Source: Pseudomonadota bacterium (GTDB taxonomy: Bacteria > Pseudomonadota > Gammaproteobacteria > Acidiferrobacterales > Acidiferrobacteraceae). Taken from it: a stretch of 39,716 bases of DNA. The DNA lies in the NCBI GenBank assembly GCA_021819125.1, contig JAKARW010000010.1:4120-43835 (forward strand), in the 5' to 3' direction. The notes beneath the pieces are model-generated. The model was given only the letters and a program-made list of their open reading frames with translations. It was not told where the DNA came from and did not search any database. Within the stretch, counting starts at the first letter, position 1, and the number at the start of each line of letters is the position of its first letter. The translations under genes and the position numbers were made by a program. Shown here one piece after another: positions 26,736 to 36,270 of this stretch.

Positions 26736-27501
26736 GAAACGTTTCGGCCAGCATTTCCTGCGTGATGAGTCGGTCCTTGCGCGTATTGCCGGGGTCTGCA
26801 TAAGCGTGCCCGGAGACCATACCGTCGAGATCGGCCCAGGCGATGGCGCGCTTACCGCTCATCTGTTGAGACAAGAAGGCGAGCTGCACGTAGTCGAGAT
26901 CGATCGTGATCTGATCGCAGGTCTCAGGCGGCGTTTTGCCAAAGACCCGGTCGTCGTGCACGAGGCCGATGCCCTGCGGTTTTCGCTGTGCGCGGCGGTT
27001 GCGGGCCGGCTGCGCGTCGTCGGCAATCTTCCCTACAATATCTCGAGCCCGCTCATTTTCCATTTCCTCGAACAGCCTTGTATCGCCGGCATGGTGTTCC
27101 TCTTGCAAAAGGAGGTCGTCGATCGTCTGGCGGCGCCCCCCGGGGGTCGTGATTACGGGCGACTGTCTGTCATGGTGCAGGCGCGCTGCGAGGTCGTGCC
27201 GCTTTTTGCCGTGGCAGCGGAGGCCTTCAGTCCGCCGCCGGCGGTCGAGTCGCGCCTCGTGGCCTTGCGTCCGGTCCCATCTTTGGTCCCGCCGCCGGCT
27301 GCGGCGCTGTTTGCCGAGATCGTCGCGCGCGCGTTCTCGCAGCGGCGCAAGATGCTTCGCCAGTCATTACGCGGGTATTTCGGGAATGAGGATTGGCGAA
27401 TGCTCGGTATCGACGCCACCCGCCGCGCCGAGACCCTGAGTGTCGCTGAATTCGTGGCGCTGGCGGCCCACGCCAAGACTCAGTCCCGTTCGTCTCCATA
27501 G
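26722..27501 (+). CDS. rsmA: 16S rRNA (adenine1518-N6/adenine1519-N6)-dimethyltransferase
   Basis: Dimethylates two adenines in the 3' hairpin of 16S rRNA late in small subunit assembly. The 259-residue protein has the start [15 protein letters not shown] motif [12 protein letters not shown] and the catalytic [10 protein letters not shown]. The C-terminal helical domain contains [13 protein letters not shown]. The start at 26722 follows the family N-terminus and overlaps pdxA. The last 22 bases overlap the end of queH on the opposite strand. Confidence 0.96.
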
Positions 27502-28139
27502 AAGCGTTCACCAAAGCGGATCTTGCCGTAGCCACGTTTGCGGCGGGCGCGGTTCGTGTCGCGCAGGGAATACACGCAGCCGCAGTACTCCTGCTGGTAG
27601 AAGCGCTGCTCCTTGGCGATTTGTATCATGCGCTGACTCCCTCCGCCCTTGCGCCAGTTGAAGGTCCAGTAGCGCAATCCGGGATAGCGGCTTGCGGCGC
27701 GCTCCCCGCAGGCATTGATCTGATTCATGTCCTTCCAGCGCGAGATACCAAGTGAACTCGTAAAGACCGCAAAACCATGTTCCACGGCATAGAGCGCCGA
27801 GCGCTCGAAGCGCATGTCAAAGCATACGGTGCATCTCGCGCCGCGTTCCGGTTCGTTTTCGAGGCCCGTCACGCGCGCAAACCAGCGGTCCTTGTCATAA
27901 TCGAGATCGACGAAGGGCACGCCAAGCTTATCGGCAAAGTGCTTGTTCTCGGTCTTGCGCAGCTCGTACTCTTTCAAGGGCTGGATGTTGGGGTTGTAGA
28001 ACAAGACCTCGAGGGCCACGCCCGATCGCTGCATCTCCCGCATGACGTCCGCCGAGCACGGCGCGCAACACGAATGCAGGAGTACGCGGCGATCGTCGGT
28101 CGGCGCTATGAGCTGCGGACGTTCATCTGGCTTATTCAT
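27480..28139 (-). CDS. queH: Epoxyqueuosine reductase QueH
   Basis: Carries out the last step of queuosine synthesis in tRNA, reducing epoxyqueuosine; it is the cobalamin-independent alternative to QueG. The 219-residue protein has the cysteine pairs of the family: [11 protein letters not shown] near residue 25, CTVCFDMR near 105 and [11 protein letters not shown] near 190, which hold an Fe-S cluster and a metal. Arg-rich C-terminus. The ATG at 28139 overlaps the plsC stop by 4 bases, so it ends the minus-strand operon that begins further upstream. The much longer open frame upstream overlaps plsC and is not used. Confidence 0.93.
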
Positions 28140-28885
28140 TGTGTCGCGGGGATCTTTTCGCGGCAGGCCCCCTCCGCCTTCTCGAGGATCTCCGTGGTCT
28201 TTGTGATCCACGCCTCGGCGCGCGCGTTCAGGGTCGCGGCCGTGAGGCCCTCTCCCGAGAGGGGTGTCCCGATCACGACCCGCACCACGCCCGGCTCCTT
28301 GATGAAGGCCCGGCGCCCCCAGAAGCAGCCGGCATTGTGCGCAACCGGCAGCACCGGGCAGCCGGCGGCGAGGGCAAGCCGTGCCCCCCCGAGCTTGAAT
28401 CGCCCATGGCGCCCGGCCGGCACTCGCGTCCCCTCCGGAAAGATGATGACATAGCGCCCGGCGGCCAAGCGCTCGCGCCCCCCCTGTATGACCTGGTCTA
28501 TGGCCTTGTGCTGCCGCTCGCGCGCAATGGCGATCGGTTGACTCAAGGCCATCCCCCAGCCGAGCAGGGGGATCCACAAGAGTTCCCTTTTGAGAACCCA
28601 GACGTGGGGCGGGAAGATCCACTGAAAGGCCAGGGTCTCCCACGTGGACTGGTGCTTGGAGAGGATGACGCATGGTGTGTCCGGGATGTTCTCGCGCCCC
28701 TCGACCTCATACGACAGTCCACAGGTAAGCTTGAGCCACCATATGTTGAAGCGTCCCCACTGGCTGATGACGCGGTAGCGCGGTATGGGGCGCAGCCAAA
28801 AGAGCGCCAGCACGACCGGTGCCCAGACGGCGATCGACAGGATGAAGCCCACCTGGAAGGCTGCGGCCGCGAGCGGCTTTTTCAT
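28136..28885 (-). CDS. plsC: 1-acyl-sn-glycerol-3-phosphate acyltransferase
   Basis: Adds the second acyl chain to lysophosphatidic acid in phospholipid synthesis at the inner membrane. The 249-residue protein has an N-terminal membrane helix (about 8-32). The active-site box is KHQSTWETL, an H-x4-E form of the usual H-x4-D; this form is common in the proteobacterial subgroup. The FPEGTR motif ([12 protein letters not shown]) binds glycerol phosphate, and [11 protein letters not shown] is the last block. Coupled to gmhB (ATGA) and queH. This subgroup could also acylate other lysophospholipids. Confidence 0.92.
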
Positions 28886-33768: not shown

Positions 33769-33841
33769 GGCGGCCCGCCGAAAGGCTTTAAGAGGCGGGC
33801 GCGACAGCATACCGGCTGGAGGGGTGGCGCGCCAAGGACCT

Positions 33842-34885
33842 ATGGAAAACCGTAAACGCCAGGCGATCGTCCTGCTCTCGGGCGGTCTTGATTCGCTGCT
33901 CGCGGCCCGACTGATGCTCGATCAGGGCATCCACGTCGAGGGAATCAATTTCTTTACCGGTTTTTGCGTGGAGGGGCACACGCATGCCATACGCCGTGAT
34001 CGCAAGGATCGTGCCGTGCGCAATAACGCCCTTCATAGCGCAGAACAGCTAGGGATCAGGCTGCACATGATCGACGTGATCGACGACTACAAAGACGTGG
34101 TCTTGAATCCGCGCCATGGCTACGGGGCACACCTGAACCCGTGTCTCGATTGCAAGGCCTTCATGGTGGGCCGCGCGCGGTCCTGGCTCGAGGAGCACGG
34201 TTTCGATTTCATTGTCACAGGCGAGGTCTTGGGGCAGCGGCCGATGTCGCAGAGGCGGGACACGTTTCCGGTGGTGGCGCGCGAATCCGGCGCCCTGGAC
34301 CGGCTGGTACGGCCGTTGTCTGCGCGGCTCTTGCCGCCCACTCTCCCCGAACGCGAGGGCTGGGTGGATCGCGAGCGCCTGCTTGGTTTGAGTGGCCGCA
34401 ACCGTAAGCCTCAGATCGCCTTGGCGCGCGCCTACGGTTTTGATTATGCGCAGCCCGCCGGCGGGTGTTGCTTTTTGACCGACGAAAACTATGCCCACAA
34501 GCTTCGGGACCTGTGGGCAAGTCGCGGCGCGCGACGTTATGATTTTGACGACATCATGCTCCTGAAGATCGGCCGCCACCTACGGCCGCACCCGTCCTTC
34601 AAGCTCATTATCGGCCGCGAAGAGGGGGAGAACCGATTTCTGGAGGGTTATCGCCACCGTTTCGCGCATTTGTGGGCGACTGAACATAAGGGGCCGCTTG
34701 TGCTTTTGCAGGGCGATGCCAACGAAACGAATCTCGATCTCGCATGCGCCATCACCGCGCGTTTCGGACAAGGGCGGTCCAAGGCGCGCGTGCGCGTGGC
34801 GGTGGGCGAGCCCGGCGGGTTGACGCGCGAGCGCGATGTGACGCCGTTACCGGCGCACGCATTGGCCGCCGAGTGGTATTTATAA
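33842..34885 (+). CDS. PP-loop ATPase related to tRNA thiouridylases (ThiI/MnmA-like)
   Basis: A 347-residue protein with the N-type PP-loop ATP pyrophosphatase motif LLSGGLDSLLAA near residue 15. This fold adenylates a tRNA base before sulfur transfer. Conserved Cys sites suitable for sulfur carriage are NPCLDCKAFM near residue 105 and PAGGCCFLTDENY near 215, where MnmA and ThiI have their catalytic cysteines. The C-terminal third (HPSFKLIIGREEGENRFLE) looks like the NFACT-R/DUF814 RNA-binding domain. Such proteins are often annotated as tRNA 2-thiouridylate methyltransferase, which I regard as a loose name. A TusA-like sulfur carrier is the next gene. The exact tRNA position is unknown. A GTG 18 bases upstream is an alternative start. 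Confidence 0.8.
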   Translation: MENRKRQAIVLLSGGLDSLLAARLMLDQGIHVEGINFFTGFCVEGHTHAIRRDRKDRAVRNNALHSAEQLGIRLHMIDVIDDYKDVVLNPRHGYGAHLNPCLDCKAFMVGRARSWLEEHGFDFIVTGEVLGQRPMSQRRDTFPVVARESGALDRLVRPLSARLLPPTLPEREGWVDRERLLGLSGRNRKPQIALARAYGFDYAQPAGGCCFLTDENYAHKLRDLWASRGARRYDFDDIMLLKIGRHLRPHPSFKLIIGREEGENRFLEGYRHRFAHLWATEHKGPLVLLQGDANETNLDLACAITARFGQGRSKARVRVAVGEPGGLTRERDVTPLPAHALAAEWYL

Positions 34886-34888
34886 GTT

Positions 34889-35110
34889 ATGGATCTCGAT
34901 GCCCGCTACCTGCTGTGCCCCATGCCGGTGATCCGCGTCAGCTCAGTCATTGGCCGGATGGCAGCCGGCGATACTCTGACCGTGCATTGCACGGACCCGG
35001 GGGCCTTGCACGACATACCGGCCTGGTGTCGCCTCGAGGGGCACGAGGTCGTAGAAACGCGCACCGAGCCCTCCGGTGACATCGTGATCGTCATACGGGC
35101 CGGAGGCTGA
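34889..35110 (+). CDS. TusA/SirA-family sulfur carrier protein
   Basis: A 73-residue protein of the TusA fold. The sulfur-carrying Cys is in LLCPMPVIR at about residue 10, where TusA has CPxP. The C-terminal part (GDTLTVHCTDPGALHDIPAWC) is typical. TusA proteins take persulfide from a cysteine desulfurase or rhodanese and pass it on to tRNA thiolases or to oxidative sulfur metabolism. It starts 3 bases after the PP-loop thiolase gene, which makes that protein the likely partner. In sulfur oxidisers TusA also serves the Hdr-like pathway; no such genes are in view. Confidence 0.9.
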   Translation: MDLDARYLLCPMPVIRVSSVIGRMAAGDTLTVHCTDPGALHDIPAWCRLEGHEVVETRTEPSGDIVIVIRAGG

Positions 35111-35112
35111 AG

Positions 35113-36270
35113 ATGGCGGACAAGGGCGTGGCGCAGGCAGAAGACAAGGGTGCCACCGAGCCTCAAAGGGTCGTCTTGCGCGGACTGCTCGTCAATGTCG
35201 CGCTGGCCGCGGGTCAGCTTGTCATAGGCGTGATCGGGCGATCGGCGGCGCTGGTTGCCGATGGTTTCCATACCCTGTCGGACCTTTTGAGCGACACGCT
35301 GGTGCTGGCGGCCGCGCATTTCGGGGCCCAGGCGGCCGACGAGGATCACCCCTACGGGCATGCGCGCATCGAGACCGCCGGGACCTTCGGATTGAGCCTG
35401 GTGCTGGTCGGCGCCGGCGTCGGCATAGCGCTCCACGCGGCGGACGCCCTTAGCGCACCGGCGCGGCTTACGCGCCCCGATTTCCTGGCGCTCGCCATGG
35501 CGTTCGCGGCCATCGGCATCAAGGAAGGTCTATTTCGTTACATGCGCCGCGCGGGTTTGCGGCTGCAGTCCGAGCTTCTTCACGCCAATGCCTGGCACTA
35601 CCGAACGGATGTCTTTTCCTCGATAGTGGTGGCAGTCGGCGTGGCCGGCAGCATGATGGGTGTGCGTGATCTCGATGCGGTAGCCGCCATCGGTGTCGCC
35701 ATTCTCATCGTCCGCATGGGCGCCATGCTCGGCTGGCAGGCGATGCGCGAACTCGTCGACACGGGTCTTGAGACCGAGAAGCTTGAACGTATCCGCCATG
35801 TCATCTTGTCAATCGACGGCGTCCGCACCTTACATCTCTTGCGCACACGTCGCGCCGGGGGGCGGGCGTTCATCGATGTCCATATTCTTGTGGACGGGAC
35901 CATCAGCGTGTCGGAAGGCCACCAGATCAGCGAGATGGTGCGCGTAGCCCTCATGCGCCATATAAGTAATATCGCCGACGTGGTGGTCCACACCGATTCG
36001 GAAGATGATGAGTATGCCGCGACCAATGCGCGCCTGCCGTTGCGTGCCGAGGTCTTGAAGCGCCTCGAGCATTATTTCGCGGGTATCGAGGCGGCTCCCG
36101 CCATCGAGTCGGTGGTCTTGCACTACCTGCGCGGGAAAATCATGGTGGAGTTGCGGTTGCCACTCGATCTGGCGCCAACCGCGGCCGCCGCCCGGGCCTT
36201 GCAAGCGCAATTCGCGCAGGCGGCCGCGCGTGATCCGCAAATCGGGTTCGTGCACGTCTGCTTTCAATAA
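35113..36270 (+). CDS. Cation diffusion facilitator family transporter
   Basis: A 385-residue inner membrane exporter of divalent metal ions driven by proton exchange. It has six helices in the first 215 residues. The metal site is DGFHTLSDLLSD in helix 2 and WHYRTDVFSS in helix 5 (H-x3-D in each), a pattern seen in Zn, Fe or Mn transporters. DHPYGHARIET lies between helices 2 and 3 as usual. Residues 216-385 hold the cytoplasmic dimer domain plus an extra alpha/beta repeat (EAAPAIESVVLHYLRGKIMVE), so the C-terminus is longer than the family's. It starts 2 bases after the TusA-like gene. The metal cannot be told from sequence. Confidence 0.9.
   Translation: MADKGVAQAEDKGATEPQRVVLRGLLVNVALAAGQLVIGVIGRSAALVADGFHTLSDLLSDTLVLAAAHFGAQAADEDHPYGHARIETAGTFGLSLVLVGAGVGIALHAADALSAPARLTRPDFLALAMAFAAIGIKEGLFRYMRRAGLRLQSELLHANAWHYRTDVFSSIVVAVGVAGSMMGVRDLDAVAAIGVAILIVRMGAMLGWQAMRELVDTGLETEKLERIRHVILSIDGVRTLHLLRTRRAGGRAFIDVHILVDGTISVSEGHQISEMVRVALMRHISNIADVVVHTDSEDDEYAATNARLPLRAEVLKRLEHYFAGIEAAPAIESVVLHYLRGKIMVELRLPLDLAPTAAAARALQAQFAQAAARDPQIGFVHVCFQ

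Follow-up and report, generated by a model that had tools for sequence, protein, structure and literature searches.

In ThiI, the 4-thiouridine (s4U) synthetase, a THUMP domain precedes the PP-loop domain, and carriers of the TusA family are marked by a CPxP motif. Another architecture is said to have been predicted in silico by Burroughs and Aravind in 2014, with NFACT-R acting in a new tRNA 4-thiouridylation pathway together with TusA-like proteins; a pathway of PP-loop, NFACT-R and TusA-like parts is thus not new as an idea. Here we describe a locus in a window of 39,716 nucleotides (the whole stretch of DNA analyzed) from an Acidiferrobacteraceae genome (GenBank assembly GCA_021819125.1, contig JAKARW010000010.1, positions 4,120 to 43,835), where a gene for a PP-loop protein ending in an NFACT-R domain, given the working name PPN, is followed by genes for a TusA-like protein and for a cation exporter of the CDF family. 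We consider it likely that PPN and its TusA-like neighbor form a system that takes the place of ThiI in making 4-thiouridine, with U8 of tRNA as its most likely site. The computed basis for this comprises domains, fold, gene linkage, invariant cysteines, a search of the host genome that found no ThiI, the mutual exclusion of PPN and ThiI across genomes and the joint occurrence of PPN with RudS, an eraser of s4U; from these we infer the product, its position, RNA binding, an iron-sulfur cluster and direct sulfur transfer from TusA to PPN.

The initial annotation of this DNA had left the modified base open. We favor s4U8 because PPN and ThiI exclude each other and because RudS co-occurs with PPN, and we place the modification at U8 because this is the main s4U site known in the parts of PMC11417400 drawn on here, rather than from data on the host. 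The host genome, listed as 99.7% complete, carries one PPN, four TusA-family genes, an MnmA that scores 391 bits (cut-off 284) and a TtcA-like protein that stays, at 205.9 bits, below the cut-off of 272, and no ThiI was found in it, PF02568 matching only PPN and MnmA and TIGR00342 giving no match. Across genomes, with PPN called at E ≤ 1e-20 and ThiI by TIGR00342 at E ≤ 1e-20, a class sample of 369 genomes held PPN in 180 and ThiI in 28 (25 of the 28 over the curated cut-off), and a single genome had both, against 13.7 expected (Fisher p 1e-7, related genomes being treated as independent). Similarly, the phylum sample of 398 genomes held PPN in 46 and ThiI in 139 (of these matches 137 exceed the cut-off and one, that of genome G676, is interrupted by stops), with none having both against 16.1 expected (p 7e-10). 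The draws were taken as identical between searches, as their handles and sizes agree. Neither gene was found in 162 of the 369 class genomes.

A second line of evidence comes from RudS, a TudS-DUF1722 protein that removes s4U from tRNA and is described, in the parts of PMC11417400 drawn on here, as specific for s4U in tRNA. According to those parts, most RudS genomes have ThiI and two groups are without it as searched there, for which either ThiI homologues of other architecture or a lack of s4U was suggested (PMC11417400). If such homologues are present in RudS genomes, RudS should follow PPN where ThiI is absent. DUF1722 was found in 97 of the 369 class genomes, distributed over 81/179 genomes with PPN only, 14/28 genomes with ThiI (including G275, which has both) and 2/162 with neither (Fisher p 4e-25 for PPN only vs neither, genomes treated as independent); at a stricter cut of 1e-15 the corresponding counts were 74/179, 14/28 and 2/162. 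The 97 RudS genomes fall into 67 families, each of which has a sampled member with PPN (56) or ThiI (12), one family having both. Ten DUF1722 loci were taken, of which the tenth, L177, was left out as it had no fitting frame, and all nine that were scanned are TudS-DUF1722 fusions (eight from PPN genomes and one from a ThiI genome). RudS, an eraser and not a writer, would act on the predicted product of PPN, and it co-occurs with PPN as it does with ThiI. In the ThiI-type genome G375, ThiI has a DUF1722 match as its immediate neighbor (contig C25, around 27078-28575), an operon-like link of writer and eraser.

The architecture of PPN agrees with such a role. Its N-terminal part, in a match starting at residue 7, is recognized by both PF02568 (ThiI; E 5.4e-10) and PF03054 (the MnmA HUP domain; E 6.5e-10), and the protein falls below every NCBIfam equivalog cut-off. 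Against the MnmA equivalog TIGR00420 it scores 40.1 bits (cut-off 236.95) with only residues 8-128 aligned, and against the ThiI equivalog TIGR00342 it scores 38.6 bits (cut-off 264.5) in a match confined to positions 174-299 of the 373 in the model. In PPN, no THUMP family was detected at E ≤ 1 and no rhodanese family was reported in the Pfam/NCBIfam profile search. A structure model built from a 56-sequence alignment reached a mean pLDDT of 87.6 and a pTM of 0.84; a single-sequence AlphaFold model (mean pLDDT 37.6) was set aside. When VIA-align was run on Foldseek candidates, the modeled PP-loop domain had its top match in ThiI 4kr6, where a 4-thiouridine synthetase is in complex with RNA (Z 16.0, rmsd 2.4 over 161 residues); YcfA (Z 15.4) was tied with this match, and a second ThiI, 2c5s (Z 15.3), tied with MnmA 2hma (Z 14.4, rmsd 2.9, 163 residues) and LarE (14.4). 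On this model the PP-loop domain groups with ThiI, MnmA and further PP-loop enzymes that insert sulfur, and its fold appears to lean slightly to ThiI. With hhalign, only the PP-loop aligns between PPN and the TtcA-like protein of the host. The C-terminal part of PPN (approximately residues 245-347) fits the C-terminal region of RqcH (8s1u_H; Z 14.6, rmsd 2.0, 101 residues), and CCDC25 also matches.

PPN therefore resembles ThiI in its PP-loop motif SGGxDS, in having ThiI among its closest solved folds, in its predicted product s4U8 and in a distribution complementary to that of ThiI, and differs from it in having no detected THUMP or reported rhodanese, in the NFACT-R domain at its C-terminus and in the adjoining TusA gene; the NFACT-R domain also sets it apart from MnmA. 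Much of what the initial annotation had read from this DNA is borne out by these results, namely a run of three genes with gaps of 3 and 2 bases, a PP-loop suited to ATP activation together with cysteine motifs (residues 42, 101, 104, 209 and 210), a domain order unlike those of ThiI and MnmA, and an RNA-binding C-terminus, for which an NFACT-R fold was found and RNA binding is suggested by the family name. Its proposal of a dedicated carrier is likewise supported by the retention of the TusA neighbor in relatives.

The second gene of the locus belongs to the TusA family by its match to PF01206 (74.8 bits; cut-off 28.6) and its CPMP motif, and stays below the E. coli-type TusA equivalog (47.9 bits; cut-off 78). 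A TusA gene was counted as a neighbor when it lay on the same strand no more than 300 nt downstream of PPN, at loci with enough downstream sequence; the sets consist of best-scoring loci, and the three class sets partly overlap. The relatives set comprised 30 loci (own locus included) from 56 matching genomes, the class set 29 new loci from 180 matching genomes (two end too early, leaving 27 usable for TusA), and the named set the 80 top-scoring of at least 553 relatives (four end too early, leaving 76). TusA follows PPN at 30/30, 27/27 and 73/76 of these loci, respectively, and is a steadier partner of PPN than the CDF gene. Since gene 1 shares 46-100% identity with the 175 gathered PPN rows (own locus included) and TusA adjoins PPN in relatives, the gene pair is not a product of chance. 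In the named collection, the closest relatives of PPN come from Proteobacteria and Gammaproteobacteria bins; records carrying a PPN include some under the names Methylophaga, Sedimenticola and Thiohalomonas.

The cysteines of PPN were compared in an alignment of 181 rows, consisting of 175 PPN (a few of them incomplete), five MnmA-like proteins and one fragment; the underlying sets partly overlap and some genomes are counted twice. C101, C104 and C210 are present in 175/175 PPN rows and together give the CxxC...C arrangement of [4Fe-4S] thiolases. When PPN is aligned with the host genome's own MnmA, C101 lies opposite the Asp of NPDILC, C104 opposite the Cys of that motif, and C210 opposite the Cys of GICF, which occupies the position of E. 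coli Cys199; the host thus combines an MnmA of D type (DxxC...C) with a PPN carrying the Fe-S-type triad. The types C-DxxC-C and CC-CxxC-C are distinguished by motif among MnmA proteins in the parts of PMC11784392 drawn on here, where the E. coli residues are Asp99, Cys102 and Cys199, and in NcsA three conserved cysteines hold a [4Fe-4S] cluster, according to the parts of PMC10067955 drawn on. As the PPN triad is that of C-type MnmA, TtuA and NcsA, likewise PP-loop enzymes with CxxC and a distal Cys in these partial sources (PMC11784392, PMC10067955), PPN probably holds a [4Fe-4S] cluster at C101, C104 and C210. It differs from these enzymes in its C-terminal RNA-binding domain, and the cluster is predicted by analogy.

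By the mechanism that we propose, the NFACT-R domain would bind tRNA, the role that THUMP has in ThiI; the PP-loop domain would adenylate the uridine (U8) using ATP; and the adjacent TusA, presumably loaded by a cysteine desulfurase, would deliver persulfide sulfur directly to PPN, as suggested by the adjacency of the genes. The sulfur would probably be activated on the cluster at C101/C104/C210, with C42 and C209 as possible relay cysteines. The same product could be reached without Fe-S, by persulfide-disulfide chemistry in which TusA passes sulfur to C210, C209 or C42 and C104 resolves the intermediate. A TusA partner suits a persulfide relay, C104 and C210 align with the two cysteines of the host MnmA, and C42 and C209 are present in 169/175 rows. 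We nevertheless find this chemistry somewhat doubtful: the three universal cysteines of PPN are the CxxC...C of [4Fe-4S] thiolases, whereas the host MnmA has DxxC...C, and C42 and C209 are absent from six divergent members.

These six rows, L190-L195 (genomes G275, G159, G150, G368, G110 and G270), represent three families at 46-49% identity to gene 1 and form a divergent PPN subfamily with neither C42 nor C209 and with no TusA in the available flanks, which for L190 extend only 383 nt downstream. C42 and C209 may go together with the TusA partnership; the link is not clean, as L189 keeps both cysteines and has no visible TusA.

Several observations weigh against a ThiI-replacing, TusA-fed s4U system. 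Foldseek ranks MnmA, not ThiI, on top of the PPN matches by E-value, and the ThiI fold matches are tied with those of other PP-loop enzymes. In other classes of the phylum (27 loci from 42 such genomes) TusA lies within 300 nt at 18/27 loci and 9/27 are without it, and none is visible in the available flanks of seven class loci, L189-L195, that were picked for their weaker matches. G275 carries PPN together with ThiI, its PPN being of the divergent form without C42 and C209. RudS is present in two genomes without PPN or ThiI, G265 and G379 (a repeat search at E 1e-3 yielded an MnmA-like match and nothing else in G265, and no match in G379), and the host genome itself has no DUF1722 match. A role for Fe-S is contested even in E. 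coli MnmA in the parts of PMC11784392 drawn on here. Furthermore, because the p-values treat related genomes as independent, more weight belongs to the counts by family, the sole correction applied for relatedness.

Some of these points would also suit a PPN that thiolates RNA at another base or site, for instance at an additional s2U or s2C or in rRNA via NFACT-R, with the exclusion of ThiI as a clade effect. The PP-loop of PPN also resembles that of MnmA, and the genomes counted are not independent of one another. Moreover, NFACT-R belongs to RqcH, which the PPN C-terminal fold matches and which acts on the 50S subunit according to the parts of PMC8012679 drawn on here. Against this, the host already has MnmA and a TtcA-like protein, and RudS, specific for s4U as described in the same parts of PMC11417400, accompanies PPN-only genomes so much more often than genomes with neither writer (81/179 vs 2/162) that we regard another target as quite unlikely.

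Should PPN and TusA indeed write s4U8, they would constitute a second writer, nearly exclusive with ThiI, in 180/369 class genomes and would explain how s4U could be made there, with THUMP replaced by NFACT-R. The RudS eraser would gain a writer partner in genomes without ThiI, a point left open in the parts of PMC11417400 drawn on here, and a function would be assigned to a conserved two-gene module that reaches no NCBIfam equivalog cut-off. We are evenly divided over a broader proposal, in which PPN-TusA would be the general s4U8 writer of many ThiI-less proteobacteria, dependent on Fe-S and using NFACT-R for THUMP. In this proposal its own TusA would feed it directly, with TusBCD-E bypassed, and it would supply the writer that is missing from at least some of the RudS bacteria where ThiI was not found. 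PPN shares with the family reportedly predicted in 2014 the order of PP-loop HUP and then NFACT-R, the TusA-like neighbor and the predicted product. This study presents the counted exclusion of ThiI, the co-occurrence of RudS, the invariant CxxC...C, the measured links to TusA and CDF and the CDF/glnA context. No experimental study of the PPN family was among the matches listed in the open-licence literature.

The features of the locus are collected in Table 1. PPN might also start earlier, at an in-frame GTG at 33824. A scan of the locus DNA returned one promoter-like site (0.6 expected) and seven terminator-like sites (2.8 expected), several of the latter within genes.

Table 1. Genes, domains and motifs of the PPN locus, in window coordinates.
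Feature	Position	Strand	Details
PPN (PP-loop, ThiI/MnmA-like HUP + NFACT-R_2; proposed tRNA s4U8 synthase)	33842..34885	+	347 aa
PP-loop motif SGGLDS, residues 13-18	33878..33895	+	unchanged in 24/24 aligned rows
Cys42	33965..33967	+	present in 169/175 PPN rows
C101-x-x-C104, proposed [4Fe-4S] ligands	34142..34153	+	175/175 PPN rows
C209-C210	34466..34471	+	C210 in 175/175, C209 in 169/175 PPN rows
NFACT-R_2 domain (PF18297), residues 244-346, proposed RNA-binding part	34571..34879	+	E 6.7e-30
TusA-like sulfur carrier	34889..35110	+	73 aa, CPMP at residues 10-13
CDF cation exporter	35113..36270	+	385 aa; H53, D57, H162, D166 (HxxxD twice); ~90 residues beyond ZT_dimer

The third gene encodes a CDF protein, as indicated by its scores against PF01545 (134.1 bits; cut-off 26.6) and ZT_dimer (76.1 bits; cut-off 26.7), and in the PPN-linked CDFs the residues H53, D57, H162 and D166 are each at least 95% conserved over 101 aligned rows. 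The stretch that follows ZT_dimer, past residue 296, has no Pfam family over cut-off, and C-terminal residues such as H337 and Y338 are conserved among the linked CDFs. A CDF gene comes after PPN-tusA at 29/29 relatives, 21/26 class, 47/70 named and 4/27 other-class loci. The genes of the trio are thus not unlinked in relatives, and the CDF gene is a frequent neighbor inside a conserved block, with a looser link than that of TusA. The recurrent wider order is glyS-glyQ-(mtgA) facing PPN-tusA-cdf, followed by glnA, and among the 49 named loci that extend 5 kb or more downstream, CDF and glnA occur together at 27, glnA alone at nine, CDF alone at three and neither at ten; CDF can therefore be absent while PPN-tusA-glnA persists.

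The linkage to an exporter noted in the initial annotation is accordingly real, as part of the glyQS-mtgA / PPN-tusA-cdf / glnA block, and the accompanying suggestion that the exporter protects the thiol chemistry from metals found no specific support. A functional part for the exporter in the system, through metal protection or balance for Fe-S or thiol chemistry, would fit its frequency behind PPN-tusA, and the four cases in other classes argue against pure shared synteny. We consider such a part unlikely, as CDF tracks the glnA context, TusA is kept at many loci without CDF, and the linked CDF-like protein of L154 has altered metal-site residues; shared ancestry of the block explains much of the linkage. 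At L154, a locus from another class, the CDF-like gene lies beside PPN-tusA with all four metal-site residues changed (H53, D57, H162 and D166 in gene 3 numbering), and judging from these changes its product may no longer be a transporter.

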